Shown here: piece by piece, positions 3,484 to 26,088 of the stretch
Layout: every line of letters begins with the position of its first letter
How positions within the stretch are numbered: the first letter of the stretch is position 1
DNA from: an uncultured Spartobacteria bacterium
GTDB lineage: Bacteria > Verrucomicrobiota > Verrucomicrobiia > Chthoniobacterales > UBA6821
DNA: 35,282 nt
Assembly: GCA_903868795.1 (NCBI GenBank)
Contig: CAIPWR010000112.1
Location: 1 to 35,282, forward strand
Direction: 5' to 3'
The notes under the pieces: generated by a model
What the model was told of the DNA's origin: nothing
The model's database searches: none
The model's input: the letters and a program-made list of their open reading frames with translations, nothing else
Position numbers and translations under genes: made by a program

Positions 3484-4713
3484 ATGCAGGGGTTCATTCA
3501 TCTCCTGCTGCAATTGCTTCTTTGGGGTCTTCTAATTCCCCTGCTGGGCCTATGTTTCATTCACTCCCTCATGAACATGAGGTTGCTGAGGAGATTGAAG
3601 TCCATGGTTCCTGTGAGTGGAGAACTGCAAGATGTGTCGGTGCTGGTTCCGGCTCGTAATGAGGAGGGACGGATCCGTGACTGTCTTGCGTCTCTCATCG
3701 CGCAGGAGCCTCCGGTCCGGGAGATCATCCTGCTAGATGATCGGTCCAGTGATGGAACGGCCGCGATTGCACTGGAACTAGGGTTCCAAAAGGAGCCAGG
3801 AAGCCGTCTGAGAATTATTCATGGGCAGGATTTGCCACAGGAGTGGGTTGGTAAAAACTGGGCCTGCCATCAACTCTCTCTGGCCGCCTCACCAGAGAGC
3901 ACGCATCTTCTCTTCACCGATGCCGACACGGTTCATGGTCCCGCTTGTGTTCGTTCGGCGATCGCGCATGCTCTATCCACGAAGGCCGATCTTCTCTCGC
4001 TCTGGCCCGATCAGATTACTGGCACCTGGTCTGAAAAAATGGTGATTCCCCTGGGATATCTCCTCTTCATGGCGTTTCATCCATTTCCCCTTCTCGGCCT
4101 CTTGCAACAGAAACCAGAAAGGGCTGCACGGTGGGGCTTCACTCGGGCTCAGTTGGGCGCGCTTGGAGCAGCCAATGGACAATTCCTTCTTTTTAAGCGT
4201 TCCTCGTATGAGGCCCTCGGGGGGCATGAATTCCTGAAGAATCATCTCGTTGAAGACATTGCTTTTGGCCGAAGGGTGGCCTCTCGGACAGGCGAGGGGA
4301 TGCGGTTGGTCAATGCCGATGGCATCGATCTTCTGAAGTGCCGTATGTACACGGGCTTTCCAGAACTCTGGGAGGGCTTCTCCAAGAATCTTCGCCCCGT
4401 CTTTGAGGAGTCGCATGTCGGTTTTGTGCTCTTTGGAGTGGTGATTTTCAGTTTCTTCCTTTTGCCGTTTCTGTTGCTGATGCTCAAAGGGCCGTTGTTT
4501 GAAGCTGCCATGATTGCAGTCCTGTTGATCATGGGAATGAGGTTGATGTTGACTGTGCGGTTCCGCACCTCGTGGCTTGGATTCATCACTCACCCATTCG
4601 CCGTGATCCTCTCGCTTCTCATTGCGCTCAATAGCTGGAGACTTTGCCAAACGTCCGGGGTGAGCTGGAAGGGGCGTAACTATTCCGGCAAAACCCGCTC
4701 CCTTCTCGACTGA
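3484..4713 (+). CDS. Membrane GT2 glycosyltransferase (HpnB/CrtQ-like)
   Basis: This 409-aa protein has an N-terminal membrane anchor (about 5-28), a GT-A family 2 catalytic domain and two or three C-terminal membrane helices (from about residue 310). Visible motifs are VPARNEE, LLDDRSSDG (Asp85/Asp86), the metal-binding DAD (146-148), NGQFLLFKRSSYEALGGH and the catalytic-base region VEDIAFG (Glu257-Asp258). It should move a sugar from a nucleotide-sugar onto a lipid-like acceptor at the cytoplasmic face. The layout resembles hopanoid-associated HpnB and carotenoid CrtQ enzymes, but no hopanoid or carotenoid gene is nearby, so the acceptor is unknown. The ATG at 3484 is preferred to a TTG four codons upstream. 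It heads a tightly spaced run of genes that continues to livF. Confidence 0.85.
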   Translation: MQGFIHLLLQLLLWGLLIPLLGLCFIHSLMNMRLLRRLKSMVPVSGELQDVSVLVPARNEEGRIRDCLASLIAQEPPVREIILLDDRSSDGTAAIALELGFQKEPGSRLRIIHGQDLPQEWVGKNWACHQLSLAASPESTHLLFTDADTVHGPACVRSAIAHALSTKADLLSLWPDQITGTWSEKMVIPLGYLLFMAFHPFPLLGLLQQKPERAARWGFTRAQLGALGAANGQFLLFKRSSYEALGGHEFLKNHLVEDIAFGRRVASRTGEGMRLVNADGIDLLKCRMYTGFPELWEGFSKNLRPVFEESHVGFVLFGVVIFSFFLLPFLLLMLKGPLFEAAMIAVLLIMGMRLMLTVRFRTSWLGFITHPFAVILSLLIALNSWRLCQTSGVSWKGRNYSGKTRSLLD

Positions 4714-21499: not shown

Positions 21500-22222
21500 T
21501 TAGCCTGATACTCGATCGATCCAGAGAGCCTGACGAGTGACGGGAAATCTGGCGTGTCCGAACTGTTTCCACCCGGCTCTGGTGGCTAACGAATGAAATT
21601 CGTTAAAGGAGAAAGCCCTGCGTATAGAAATGCGGGCATCGTGTTTCGTCATGGGCTCCCTTAGCAAGAGTGCGGTCAACAGCCAGATGCCAAAAGCACC
21701 AATGGAATTTCGCTCTAGATCGGCTATGAGCAATTGATGGGAGGAGAGCCGTCGGGCATTACTCATCACTAGAAGGGCATCATCTTCGCTGAAGTGATGG
21801 AGCGCCAAAGAACAGAGAACCAGTTCCCACGAACCTGAGCCCCAATTCCGAATATCTCCTTGCTGAAAGGTGATCTCGGGAAAGTCCCGACTCCTTTCAC
21901 GGGCTACTGCGAGGGTAGCCTCGTTCATATCAATGGCATCGACAGTGACGGGAATACTCCGCTCTCGACACCAGAGAACCAATTCCCTGGGAAGATCTCC
22001 CTCACCAGTGGCCAGATCCAAGACCCTGAGCAATGGCCCTCCGTAAGGACGCTTCCAAAACCAGCGTTTCAAAAACCGATGAAGGATCGAGTAGGCTCCA
22101 AAGTAACGATTGAGCCATCGCAGGTTGGCAAGGTCCCGTTCTAACTCCGCTGAGGGTTTCCCGTTTTCGAGGACGGCCAAATCCATGAGCTCGGGAAGAT
22201 CCGGGTCGAATTCCCGCTTCAT
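21500..22222 (-). CDS. Class I SAM-dependent methyltransferase
   Basis: The 240-aa protein has a Rossmann methyltransferase fold. Motif I is VLDLATGEGDLPREL, the acidic end of strand 2 is VDAIDMNEATL, and motif II/III follows with QQGDIRNW and LVLCSLALHHFSEDDA. The N-terminal helix (LERDLANLRWLNRYFGAYSILHRFL) resembles methyltransferases found beside polyketide or quinone genes, but no such genes are present, so the substrate is unknown. The ATG at 22222 is preferred. An ATG at 22258 would overlap the previous gene by 29 bases. It is the last gene of the minus-strand marR-tolC-yfiH set. Confidence 0.8.
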   Translation of the reverse strand: MKREFDPDLPELMDLAVLENGKPSAELERDLANLRWLNRYFGAYSILHRFLKRWFWKRPYGGPLLRVLDLATGEGDLPRELVLWCRERSIPVTVDAIDMNEATLAVARERSRDFPEITFQQGDIRNWGSGSWELVLCSLALHHFSEDDALLVMSNARRLSSHQLLIADLERNSIGAFGIWLLTALLLREPMTKHDARISIRRAFSFNEFHSLATRAGWKQFGHARFPVTRQALWIDRVSG

Positions 22223-22229
22223 TAGGAAA

Positions 22230-22889
22230 TCACGACGGAAGGAGGGTGAGTGTTGCAAGCATCCGACCGGTTAGACCTTTTTCGCTGCGGTAGGAGTAGT
22301 AGAGTTCGGGATGACAGGCTGTGCAGATTTCAGGGTCGTGAATATCCAGTACGCCGCAGGCACGTGCCTGCTCCCGAATCCTCGCTGCAAAATCGATCTC
22401 ATAGCAGGGGGGGCGAATGCAGGGGCCAATGACCACGATGAGATCCTGGCTATCAAGTTCGGTAATCTTCAGGAGTTTCTCAATTACGAGAGGGACAATC
22501 CCAAGTTCGGTCCCCTTTTTTCCGGCGTGGACAAGTGCGCCTGCCGATCCGTCACGCGCCACAATCCAGACAGGAGCGCAATCAGCCACATAGATACCGA
22601 GGGTCAGAGCCCGTGTACAGGTGATGAGGGCATCCACTCCCTGAATCGCAGAGGTCGTAGCCCCGGTGACTATGGCGATCTCCTTTCCGTGAATCTGTTC
22701 GGCCGTGACCAGAGGAAAGTTCTCAAGACCTGATTGCTGAAGAATGCGGTGATGTTGGGGGGCCAGCAATGCCATCGCCTCGGATCGCTCCACGGAAATC
22801 GAAAGCCCGGGAATGCGGCCAATAAAATGGGCCTCGATCCCGGGTGTTCCCTCGAGAGTTTGAACCGACTCGATGGGAGTTCTGTTCAA
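22230..22889 (-). CDS. YfiH/LACC1-family (DUF152) multicopper-like or purine nucleoside phosphorylase protein
   Basis: This 219-aa member of the YfiH (PF02578) family keeps the metal-binding triad: His67 in AEQIHG, Cys104 in VADCAPVWIV and His121 in LVHAGKKG. It also keeps GPCIRPPCYEID. Family members were annotated as laccase-like polyphenol oxidases and have since been shown to act on purine nucleosides. In some bacteria YfiH edits peptidoglycan precursors. The N-terminal third lacks the usual F-S-T-R-x-GG-V-S motif (HFIGRIPGLSISVERSEAM instead). The start is a TTG at 22889, 22 bp after the tolC stop, which fits an operon. Confidence 0.82.
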   Translation of the reverse strand: MNRTPIESVQTLEGTPGIEAHFIGRIPGLSISVERSEAMALLAPQHHRILQQSGLENFPLVTAEQIHGKEIAIVTGATTSAIQGVDALITCTRALTLGIYVADCAPVWIVARDGSAGALVHAGKKGTELGIVPLVIEKLLKITELDSQDLIVVIGPCIRPPCYEIDFAARIREQARACGVLDIHDPEICTACHPELYYSYRSEKGLTGRMLATLTLLPS

Positions 22890-22911
22890 AGCCGATAGAA
22901 AGTTAAAAGGA

Positions 22912-24975
22912 TTAGTCGGTCGCCTTCGAGGGGGTCTTCTCTTGCTTTCTGACCATGGAACTCTTGATCAAATCATTGAAGTTATCAGAAGGGGGAAGGG
23001 GGTCATCCTTGCGGAGTGCACGAGGAAGCTCCGGGCGCTTTTTATGTTCGTCGTTAATATCCTGGTAGCGCTTCTTTTCCCATTTGTTCATCGGATCATT
23101 GAAGAACTCCTCGTACTGAGTATTGAGCGAAAGAGCCTGATCATACTGAGCCAGTCCCTGGATGTAGCTATAGTAGGCGTTGAGTACCGATGTCTGGGCT
23201 TGGAGAAGCTGAACCTGCGCATTGATGACGTCGAGTTGGACTCCGGCACCCGCATCGAGTCGCTCACGCGAGAGACGCAAGGCCTCAACCGCCTGCTCGA
23301 CGGTCGCCTTCTGGCTGTCGATGGTTTCGCTGGCTTGTTTGAGATTGGAGATTGCCTGCTGGACTTGGAGGATGACTTGGCGCACCCCGTTATCATACGC
23401 GACCTTGTAGTTCATCATTGTCGCTTTTGCCGACTTCACATTTCCGTAGGTGGCAAGGCCGTCGAAGATGGCCCAGTTTCCACTTGCCCCCACAAACCAT
23501 CCCTGAAGTGTATCATCGATATTTCGTCCCTGGTAACCCTCGTATTGGCGACCACCATTCGCATTGATGGTTGGGAGCCAGCCAGCGATAGCTGCAGTGA
23601 TCTGGCGCGCAGCAACAAGGATGTTCATGCGCTGAGCCTTGAGCTGTGGATTGCGAACGAGTGCGGTGTGGATCGAGGCATTGCTGTCGATCTTGCGGGG
23701 CGTGTAATCGAGATTTCCAACGACATCGAAGGGGATTTCGATGTTCTGAATGTTGGGATAGTTGAGGCCGATCGTGGTCACCAGGGTGAAGAGAGCGATA
23801 CGGAGGTTGTTCTTGGCCTGAATCAGGGGTGGTTCGGCATTCGCCAGCTGGACCTGCGCCTGAAGCACGTTGAATCTGGGGACTGTTCCCGCATCGTAGC
23901 GGCTTTGTTGATCAGTGACTTGTGTCTGGTAGAGCGCAACCTGCTGTTCGTTGGCGATCACGAGTGCACGGTCGAGAACGACTTGGTAGAACTGCTGGAT
24001 GACCGTTGCGATCGTGGCATCAATCGTCTGGCGGAGTTGGAAGTAGGCGATCTGTTCGGAGAGCTTGGCAGCCGCCGTGAGAGAGGGGGTCTTCCAACCG
24101 TCAAACAAAAGTTGGGTTCCCTGAAGCTGGATGTTCCACTGCTGGAAGCCTTGCTCCGTCCGATTGTTATTAGAGATTTGGTTTACCCCCTGGTTCACGG
24201 TTCCGTAGCTGTACTGGTAAGCATTGGGTGCGGAGATGCCGAACTGGGGAAGAAGACCAGCCCGCACGGTGATGTAGTTTCCGGATGCCTGACGAATCGA
24301 GGCGATATTTGTCAGGATCTGGGGATTCTTCTCGAGAGTGAGTTGAACGCAGTCGTCGATGGTCAGCTTGCGGGCATTTTTGGCGATGACGCCCGGGATC
24401 ACCGCGTTTCCCGCCTTGGCAAGGGCTTCCGCCGTCAGGGGAATGTCCTTCACGCTGTTCTTGAGGCCGAAGGCATTCGTTCCTGCTGTCGGCATCGTGA
24501 TGGGGCCGCCCGTGCTTGTCGGGAGAGGTGCCATCAGGGAACTCGGGGTGATGGGATTGGTGATCATGGGAGCCTGCGGAAGATTGGGCGCCGTGATCGT
24601 CGGGAGATTTGGGAGAGTATTGGTGCCGGCATTAAGACTTTCTGGCGTTGCCGGAGGGTTTGAAGCCAAGGAGGGCATCACGGAGGCACCCATCACCGAC
24701 TGGTCATTCGTCGAGGGTGCATTCGTTGCGAGGACGGGGGAATTCGTTGTGGCTTGTACGTTCACCTGGGCGCCAACCGAAAGGCCGAGAAGTGACTGGT
24801 CAGCCGCAGAGGGCTTGTTGGTTGCAACGATAGGATTGGTGCTCAGTGCCTGCAGGGCATCAATCGCTCCGGTTGCAATGCCCGATTCGGTGTCATTGTT
24901 TGAAGAGGCGGCCTTGGATGGATGCGCAACCGCAAGCAGGAAACTCGCGGCAAGAAGTGTGGTGAGTGTTTTCAT
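22912..24975 (-). CDS. TolC-family outer-membrane efflux channel
   Basis: The 687-aa protein starts with a signal peptide (MKTLTTLLAASFLLAVAHPSKA). From about residue 202 (RKLTIDDCVQLTLEKNPQIL) it shows two outer-membrane-efflux-protein repeats with long helices, e.g. FNVLQAQVQLANAEPPLIQAKNNLR and VQLDVINAQVQLLQAQTSVLNAYYSYIQGLAQYDQAL. It should form a trimeric channel through the outer membrane for efflux or type I secretion. Between the signal and the channel is an extension of about 180 residues rich in Pro, Ala, Asn and Ser, with two 21-residue imperfect repeats (47-67 and 79-99), not part of normal TolC. The ATG at 24975 overlaps the marR stop by four bases (ATGA). No adaptor or pump gene is adjacent. 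Confidence 0.9.
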   Translation of the reverse strand: MKTLTTLLAASFLLAVAHPSKAASSNNDTESGIATGAIDALQALSTNPIVATNKPSAADQSLLGLSVGAQVNVQATTNSPVLATNAPSTNDQSVMGASVMPSLASNPPATPESLNAGTNTLPNLPTITAPNLPQAPMITNPITPSSLMAPLPTSTGGPITMPTAGTNAFGLKNSVKDIPLTAEALAKAGNAVIPGVIAKNARKLTIDDCVQLTLEKNPQILTNIASIRQASGNYITVRAGLLPQFGISAPNAYQYSYGTVNQGVNQISNNNRTEQGFQQWNIQLQGTQLLFDGWKTPSLTAAAKLSEQIAYFQLRQTIDATIATVIQQFYQVVLDRALVIANEQQVALYQTQVTDQQSRYDAGTVPRFNVLQAQVQLANAEPPLIQAKNNLRIALFTLVTTIGLNYPNIQNIEIPFDVVGNLDYTPRKIDSNASIHTALVRNPQLKAQRMNILVAARQITAAIAGWLPTINANGGRQYEGYQGRNIDDTLQGWFVGASGNWAIFDGLATYGNVKSAKATMMNYKVAYDNGVRQVILQVQQAISNLKQASETIDSQKATVEQAVEALRLSRERLDAGAGVQLDVINAQVQLLQAQTSVLNAYYSYIQGLAQYDQALSLNTQYEEFFNDPMNKWEKKRYQDINDEHKKRPELPRALRKDDPLPPSDNFNDLIKSSMVRKQEKTPSKATD

Positions 24976-25442
24976 CGGTGGCAGGTGGTGCAGTAGTCGT
25001 TTATTTTTCTGTAAATGTCCAACCAAGCCCTTTGTTCCGTAGGCTCAAGACGTTCCATGACTTTTTCGAGGTTGGCTGCCATTTCTTGGCGGATTCCTTC
25101 CACGAGACGGCTTCCTTTGGTGGTTGCTTGAACCAATACTTTCCTCCGGTCTTCCTTGTCCGCGGAGCGTTTAACGTAGCCCAGTTTTTCAAGACGCTGC
25201 ACAAGTCCCGTCGCCGCAGGCATGCTGTGATCCATGAGTGTGGCAATACAGCTCATTCCGGAAGGGCCCTGGGTATAGAGATGTCCAAGCAGGAAAAACT
25301 GGGGGAAGGAGACCTTTCCCCGGGATAGTTCTCCCATGAGGTTCGCCAAGAAACGGCGCTGCATCACCATGATGATCGAGGCAAGCGAATCCACCTCCTC
25401 TAAATTCAGAGGAGTGAGAGAGTGGTCTGCTGCGGGAGTCAT
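24972..25442 (-). CDS. MarR-family transcriptional regulator
   Basis: The 156-aa winged-helix protein has the MarR arrangement: an N-terminal dimer helix (VDSLASIIMVMQRRFLANLM), a helix-turn-helix around SCIATLMDHSMPAATGLVQRLEKLGYV, and the wing with the conserved Asp-Arg-Arg (ADKEDRRKVLVQATTKG). MarR proteins generally repress their own operon until they bind a small toxic molecule. Here tolC overlaps its 3' end, so it probably controls efflux. The ATG at 25442 is chosen over a TTG at 25472, which would place the start only 5 bases from the candidate operator. The C-terminus has two cysteines (CTTCHR), possibly redox- or metal-sensitive, but this is speculative. Confidence 0.88.
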   Translation of the reverse strand: MTPAADHSLTPLNLEEVDSLASIIMVMQRRFLANLMGELSRGKVSFPQFFLLGHLYTQGPSGMSCIATLMDHSMPAATGLVQRLEKLGYVKRSADKEDRRKVLVQATTKGSRLVEGIRQEMAANLEKVMERLEPTEQRAWLDIYRKINDYCTTCHR

Positions 25443-25477
25443 GACGAGAAGGGTATCACCTAGGAATTCCAAAGAGT

Positions 25478-25496
25478 TCCTTAATGTGATTAAGGA
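25478..25496. promoter_or_regulatory. Candidate MarR operator, perfect inverted repeat
   Basis: TCCTTAATGTGATTAAGGA has perfect 8-bp arms around GTG. It lies 35 bp upstream of the marR ATG, at or just after the expected transcription start of the promoter beside it. An AT-rich palindrome of about this length in front of its own gene is the usual MarR-family arrangement, so autoregulation is a reasonable inference. Confidence 0.6.
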
Positions 25497-25501
25497 TTCC
25501 G

Positions 25502-25531
25502 ATAGTGCTTGGAATTAGGGCTTAAAGTCAA
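25502..25531 (-). promoter_or_regulatory. Candidate promoter of the marR-tolC operon
   Basis: On the minus strand, TTGACT (25526-25531) is followed by an 18-base spacer and CACTAT (25502-25507). The -35 is good (5 of 6) and the -10 is weak. The predicted start falls within the palindrome at 25478-25496. Confidence 0.4.
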
Positions 25532-25568: not shown

Positions 25569-25982
25569 CTATTGCCGCAGAAGGTCGCCGGGTTCCGGAT
25601 GGCCAGTTACTATTTCTGCCACAAAGTAAGGAGGCGTGATTTCGGCGACTTTCAGATGAGCGGTTTCCTCGCCGTTGGCAGTGACTAGAAGAGGGTTGCC
25701 TGCGGCGACCATGATGCCGGGTTCAAGCTCAGCAATGACATAACTTCCATCGTTTGAGATAGTCCTGATTGTGCCAACCGTTAGCAGTGCGATGGCTTTT
25801 GGTGGAAGAGGCTTGCGAGCGATAGGATGGAGAAGGGTAAGCGGGCCGCTCAACCATGCAAGTGACACCAGGCTCTTTGGTTGCGCTGGTGAGCTCACCG
25901 AAGGGCGCTTTGTATGCATGCATCCGCCAAAGAAAAAGAGGCAGCAGAGCGTAAGTAACAGCTTAGTCGTTTTGAAGCGCAT
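25569..25982 (-). CDS. Small lipoprotein, unknown function
   Basis: From the ATG at 25982 (directly preceded by GAGAGGGAG) the product is 137 aa with the signal MRFKTTKLLLTLCCLFFF and lipobox FGGC (Cys21), so it should be a lipid-anchored envelope protein. Upstream in-frame ATGs (25997, 26006, 26021) are possible but would put a non-signal extension in front. The mature part has a small beta-rich domain (AIALLTVGTIRTISNDGSYVIAELEPGIMVAAGNPLLVTANGEETAHLKVAEI) that suggests a short barrel-like fold. No family is recognised. It is divergent from pheA and lies about 70 bp downstream of the marR promoter region. Confidence 0.7.
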   Translation of the reverse strand: MRFKTTKLLLTLCCLFFFGGCMHTKRPSVSSPAQPKSLVSLAWLSGPLTLLHPIARKPLPPKAIALLTVGTIRTISNDGSYVIAELEPGIMVAAGNPLLVTANGEETAHLKVAEITPPYFVAEIVTGHPEPGDLLRQ

Positions 25983-26088
25983 CTCCCTCTCATGCATGGA
26001 GGCCATCGGGAAATCAATCATCCATTGGGAGGCACGCTCCTGCTCAGACTTGCATGGAGCTCAATCCATCCCCATAAATCTTGTCGAC

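Follow-up and report, generated by a model that had tools for sequence, protein, structure and literature searches.

The window analysed here, a 35,282-nucleotide stretch of an uncultured Spartobacteria bacterium, corresponds to contig C112 of a genome (G000) of 2.77 Mb in 169 contigs. On its minus strand lie four tightly packed genes, marR-tolC-yfiH-MT, which encode a MarR-family regulator, a TolC-type outer-membrane channel, a YfiH/PgeF-like protein and a methyltransferase (MT). We propose, with a probability of about 0.6, that these genes form an autoregulated operon, that a remote resistance-nodulation-division (RND) pump operon on contig C149 is co-regulated with it, and that the two enzymes have separate jobs. 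The pump-less look of the operon is then explained by remote RND operons, one of which is apparently co-regulated. The features are as follows:

25526-25531, minus strand: TTGACT, a conserved -35-like box, with 37-39 bp from the start of TTGAC to the start of the palindrome core in 15/15 testable genus genomes
25502-25507, minus strand: CACTAT, a weak -10-like element, 18 nt past TTGACT
25478-25496, no strand: predicted MarR operator, a perfect 19-bp inverted repeat with the conserved core TTAA-N5-TTAA at 25481-25493
25442-24972, minus strand: marR, MarR-family regulator, 156 residues, ATG start (PF01047, E 7e-12; MarR-family chains in PDB)
24975-22912, minus strand: tolC, outer-membrane channel, 687 residues (PF02321, OEP, E 2e-61, two stretches), with an N-terminal extension of ~185 residues before the OEP repeats
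22889-22230, minus strand: yfiH/pgeF, peptidoglycan editing factor-like hydrolase, TTG start (PF02578, Cu-oxidase_4, YfiH/PgeF, E 1.5e-40), the sole copy found in the genome
22222-21500, minus strand: MT, class I S-adenosylmethionine-dependent methyltransferase, 240 residues, ATG start (PF13649, Methyltransf_25; weak NF004851), linked to ketosynthase (KS) and SRPBCC genes in relatives
25569-26021, minus strand: lipo, a small lipoprotein-like gene without a Pfam or NCBIfam match, often upstream of marR-tolC in relatives

The coordinates confirm the compact unit described in the initial annotation: the marR stop and the tolC start overlap in ATGA, tolC and yfiH are 22 bp apart, and yfiH and the MT gene 7 bp. 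Each of the four proteins exceeds the Pfam cut-off for its family. The regulator has the winged-helix domain (PF01047, 45.4 bits versus a cut-off of 24.6) and the channel has two OEP repeats (PF02321, 207.2 bits over 2 stretches); against the NCBIfam subfamily TIGR01844, the channel scored 164.7 bits, under the cut-off of 225.15. The N-terminal extension of the channel (window 24421-24975) is rich in Pro, Thr, Asn, and Ser, and the length of the tolC open frame varies among families of the order.

The 19-bp inverted repeat, which had also been pointed out initially, is exact and lies before marR; its two arms, of 8 bp each, flank a spacer of 3 nt (TCCTTAAT-cac-ATTAAGGA). Repeats of this kind are not in themselves rare, as one search returned 8 distinct sites in the 35,282 bp, 3 of them inside the MT, yfiH, and tolC genes. 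Nevertheless, this repeat is more than chance because its inner TTAA-N5-TTAA is conserved upstream of marR in 15/15 genus genomes with usable upstream DNA, including G000; a sixteenth genus genome (L010), in which the contig end cuts marR, was left out of the count. Its outer arms (TCC/GGA) are not conserved. Outside the genus, we read 31 MarR loci from named genomes and dropped L117 and L131, in which marR is cut at the contig start. Of the remaining 29, five have the exact core, at -52 to -61 in L081, L082, L087, and L104 and at -155 in L141 (the L081 and L082 operator loci are alike), and six more have a degenerate core of 11-16 bits at -52 to -69. The conservation of the site in the genus supports the earlier claim of a MarR-controlled operon with a palindrome at its promoter, and a MarR-type regulator probably controls the channel gene and the two enzyme genes. 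A sigma-70 scan did not list the marR promoter, with its poor -10, and a promoter and terminator scan of the window gave hits no more numerous than in shuffles.

An operator weight matrix was built from the 15 genus sites (training range 20.0-28.9 bits) and used to scan ~147 kb of G000 (149,919 bp minus a 2.5-kb overlap between L066 and L193). Only two hits reached at least 16 bits, the marR site and a site on contig C149 (L064:4080-4098), whose score of 21.8 bits is within the training range; the next best hit was 15.3 bits. The C149 site ends 24 bp short of an adaptor gene (ATG at 4123), behind which an RND pump gene follows. Simulated sequence yielded 2 hits of at least 20 bits in 19.8 Mb, from which we calculate that the chance of a hit within 200 bp before either of the two RND operons of this genome is of the order of 4e-5. 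In 1,896,392 bp of the relative G003, its own marR promoter excluded, there was no hit of at least 18 bits. Given this matching operator-like site before the adaptor-RND operon, the C149 pump is probably co-regulated with the tolC operon from a distance.

Three RND genes above cut-off were found in G000: two in tandem behind one adaptor gene on C48, and one behind one adaptor gene on C149 (the pump inventory covered RND genes). Neither operon has an OEP gene beside it. The three OEP proteins of the genome are the TolC of the operon, another encoded next to HlyD and FUSC genes on C154, and a third encoded on C31 beside SRPBCC-KS genes. Pfam searches of ten genes around the operon showed no pump or adaptor, as had been noted before (the rest of the window was listed as open reading frames only), and the operon does not contain the adaptor and inner-membrane pump of a tripartite-efflux operon. 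The further view that such an absence is unusual was not borne out. According to PMC8277102, the outer-membrane gene may or may not be part of the pump operon, E. coli tolC being one that lies elsewhere. Since OEP genes can thus stand apart, and since G000 contains two RND operons that lack an adjacent OEP gene, one of them behind a matching operator-like site, the missing pump is ordinary.

The predicted arrangement has parallels in known systems. The stand-alone tolC of E. coli is likewise a channel gene encoded apart from its pump, as PMC8277102 describes. MexR-type control of mexAB-oprM likewise involves a MarR-family repressor of efflux genes, which is what we predict here. Unlike in mexAB-oprM, however, marR is grouped here with the channel gene, pgeF, and the MT gene, and the operator-like site recurs at a candidate pump operon located elsewhere in the genome.

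From these data we infer the following mechanism. MarR would bind TTAA-N5-TTAA just past the -10 and block transcription of its own operon until it is freed from the operator by a ligand, which is probably lipophilic or aromatic. The same MarR would probably also govern the C149 adaptor-RND operon through the site before its start codon, and the TolC of the operon would serve as the exit of the C149 pump. PgeF, present in the cell as a single copy, would be carried along to edit peptidoglycan precursors, and the MT would methylate the product of a KS/SRPBCC/FAD (flavin adenine dinucleotide)-oxidoreductase pathway, the other genes of which would lie elsewhere in the genome.

Conservation of gene order, a check suggested in the initial annotation, was investigated with a tolC profile in named genomes. 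There were 235 pattern matches, of which 170 were confirmed and the best 80, representing 79 loci, were kept; by title, these loci are mostly from Spartobacteria, Chthoniobacterales, or Verrucomicrobia metagenome-assembled genomes, with one titled Proteobacteria. Linkage was counted in the 76 loci that extend 900 bp or more beyond the tolC match on the downstream side, and a yfiH within 700 bp was scored as linked. We observed yfiH directly after tolC in 65/76 loci (51/62 outside the genus), and in two of the 11 others (L087, L089, L090, L092, L094, L098, L102, L111, L120, L124, and L138) yfiH is present farther off in the same locus (L098 and L111). The flanking genes do not travel along: in the named loci outside the genus, AsmA was seen in 0 and PheA and TolB in 3. 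Because the tolC-yfiH order is kept while the flanks change, we rejected a chance gene order, and the link of the channel to the two enzymes is conserved. The MT gene is next after yfiH in 20 of the 57 linked loci with room for it and is not in the other 37. With 2000 bp or more of upstream sequence required, 68 named loci could be scored for lipo, and in 41 it lies no more than 3500 bp upstream of the tolC match. Because the named loci were chosen by tolC, they are uninformative on genomes without it.

Within the genus, lipo-marR-tolC-yfiH is present in all 15 relatives, save for lipo in L010, where it would lie beyond the contig end; the MT gene is absent from G002, G006, G007, and G014, which keep marR-tolC-yfiH. 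In a class-wide sample of 103 genomes (thresholds E 1e-12 and 1e-40), 18 genomes outside the order have both tolC and yfiH, and the two are adjacent in six, all from family f18, in which 10 genomes have yfiH. A phylum-wide search, made for YfiH and not for tolC, found it in 23/135 genomes at E 1e-15. Two of the tolC relatives that lack a neighbouring yfiH (L120 and L138) lie near TIM-barrel and flippase-like genes of the set found on C31 (below).

The YfiH protein clearly belongs to PF02578 (139.5 bits versus a cut-off of 22.9). Against the NCBIfam PgeF equivalog TIGR00726 it scored 113.1 bits, and because this is under the cut-off of 141.15 we call it PgeF-like. By spacing and alignments, including an alignment to YlmD, residues Gln65, His67, Asp86, Cys104, His121, Tyr200, Arg201, and Arg209 match those of E. 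coli given in PMC8844914, with spacing that differs by one residue at most. His67, Asp86, Cys104, and His121 are invariant (19/19 aligned) and Gln65 is nearly so, while Arg209, present in this YfiH, is His in 2/19 aligned relatives. The catalytic Cys-His-Asp and the Gln/Arg substrate residues of PgeF are therefore in place, and by its sequence the protein shares both family and catalytic residues with E. coli YfiH/PgeF. It differs in that Trp127-Arg128 of E. coli PgeF is Lys124-Lys125 here, with Trp in 0/19 aligned relatives; at window 22512-22529, the HAGWRG of PgeF reads HAGKKG, and HSG[K/R]xG in the aligned relatives. In E. coli YfiH, this turn binds the diphosphate. A PF02578 match was found in 54/58 genomes, each with two matched stretches; in G000 these are two halves of a single gene, and YfiH is the only PF02578 protein found. 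Thus, YfiH looks like PgeF, the peptidoglycan editing factor. A role as a laccase acting on a compound was rejected, given the single copy and the retained PgeF residues.

The best family for the MT was PRK06202 (NF004851), of which it is not a member (117.1 bits, under the cut-off of 243), and a PDB sequence search returned two weak hits. Its genomic company is more telling. In three f18 loci (L146-L148), tolC, yfiH, MT, SRPBCC, a FabF-like KS, and a FAD oxidoreductase are contiguous (gene families assigned from L190); in L146 a TMTC/TPR protein gene precedes tolC. In G000 the set is scattered: SRPBCC and KS are paired on C31, with 48% and 54% identity to f18, and C133 carries a relative of that FAD enzyme (37%). 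Counting the MT only as a strong match (E 1e-40 or better) and SRPBCC at E 1e-6 or better, we found both in 27 of 58 genomes, the MT only in 6 (G012, G034, G039, G044, G047, and G055), SRPBCC only in 0, and neither in 25, for a Fisher value of 4e-11 that ignores kinship. Of the 29 SRPBCC loci, 27 have a KS gene next to SRPBCC, and together they represent every one of the 27 SRPBCC genomes. The four genus genomes without the MT also lack SRPBCC and fall on three tree branches (G007; G006; G002 and G014), in a tree with some weak support values (0.33, 0.59, 0.79) and with assembly gaps that could mimic absence; in G012, also of the genus, SRPBCC alone is absent. Because those four genomes keep marR-tolC-yfiH, we conclude that the MT goes with the SRPBCC-KS genes and not with tolC.

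The MT likely acts on a polyketide-type product. Distant MT relatives in other families of the phylum lie no more than ~4 kb from chalcone-synthase-type (type III) polyketide synthase (PKS) genes in 5 of 9 fetched loci; the other four, where only chosen open reading frames were run, showed no type III PKS, and a tenth locus (G173) was not fetched. PMC10896814 reports MT-oxidoreductase-type III PKS operons in Planctomycetota, in which the PKS makes alkylresorcinols and co-expression of the Gimesia maris MT and oxidoreductase genes added one methyl group. By gene content, as given there, these operons and cyanobacterial hidABC likewise have an MT beside a polyketide synthase and a FAD oxidoreductase. 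Here, in contrast, the partner is a FabF-like KS with SRPBCC, and a partnership with a type III PKS was rejected, as the genome has no PF02797 match. On C31 (L066:1872-10235), an amine-oxidase-type FAD gene, a TIM-barrel gene, a flippase-like gene, SRPBCC, and KS lie in a row, with the second TolC gene converging; flippase-SRPBCC-KS recurs in 11/11 genus loci, and this second TolC in 5 of the 11, which are short. By eye, a further row (L228, G000:C108:3000-20000) resembles the aryl-polyene type, with carrier protein, AMP ligase, glycosyltransferase, dehydratase, LolA-like, and MMPL-like genes.

The initial annotation had suggested that chemical modification of a compound is coupled to its export, and a dedicated unit in which YfiH and the MT modify one compound exported by TolC has some appeal. 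The three genes are adjacent and conserved in the genus, they continue into polyketide-type genes in the three f18 loci, and a second TolC lies beside the SRPBCC-KS genes of G000. However, YfiH is single-copy with PgeF residues kept, the MT is gone from three genus branches while marR-tolC-yfiH stays, and it is not next in most named tolC-yfiH loci with room for it. We consider such a unit improbable: YfiH is a poor match for a modifying role, and polyketide chemistry for the MT, though likely, is not tied to tolC. Somewhat less doubtful, although still unlikely, is that there is no functional coupling at all, so that the promoter shared by tolC and yfiH is an old accident, the MT is a passenger, and steady co-transcription suffices to keep the order. 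It would fit that yfiH and tolC can be lost separately and that the literature searches gave, among the matches listed, no paper linking them. Yet the pair stays adjacent in most usable loci outside the genus, where AsmA is never found and PheA and TolB are seldom found, and again in a third (all f18) of the class members beyond the order in which both genes occur. YfiH and the MT appear, from sequence, to have separate, sensible jobs, as our preferred reading holds.

Several observations weigh against that reading. Among the MarR loci outside the genus, 18/29 have no clear operator site. Of the 68 named loci with 2000 bp or more of upstream sequence, just 38 have a marR gene within 1500 bp upstream of the tolC match, and 0/6 f18 loci have one (L151 ends inside tolC), so that the tolC-yfiH pair is kept more steadily than MarR control. 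Genomes G016-G020 of sister genus g2 lack a close tolC ortholog, and G017-G020 retain yfiH; conversely, in G028 and G038, two genomes of the order that each consist of one 0.9-Mb contig, a tolC relative persists (with an inner stop in the G028 match), and no yfiH was found. The operator scan covered ~5% of G000, and the C48 RND operon has no operator site. The C149 RND ortholog was not found in the 79% of G003 read, where the one RND in 1.90 Mb is 31% identical to the C149 pump, so that the second operator is known from one genome only.

The tolC-pgeF pair, which persists as its flanks change in most of the Chthoniobacterales loci studied and in a further family of the class, suggests a link between efflux and the editing of cell-wall precursors that was not found in the literature listings searched; nor, among the matches listed, was there a paper on such an operon by title. 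More tentatively, the operon might belong to an envelope-defence regulon, in which one MarR ligand raises the remote RND pump, the TolC channel, and the peptidoglycan editing enzyme together, and to which some lineages would have added the MT from a polyketide-type lipid pathway, the product of which could itself be ligand or cargo. The shared operator-like site makes a testable regulon of a seemingly pump-less operon and suggests how pump partners might be found in uncultured bacteria. That MT and SRPBCC are missing together marks out an assayable polyketide-type gene set.

Rfam and tRNA scans of the window gave nothing. The lipo gene may be a neighbour rather than a member of the operon; beyond it, prephenate dehydratase (PheA) and TolB genes lie in the opposite orientation, and downstream of the operon there is a convergent gene with weak YhdP/AsmA matches.

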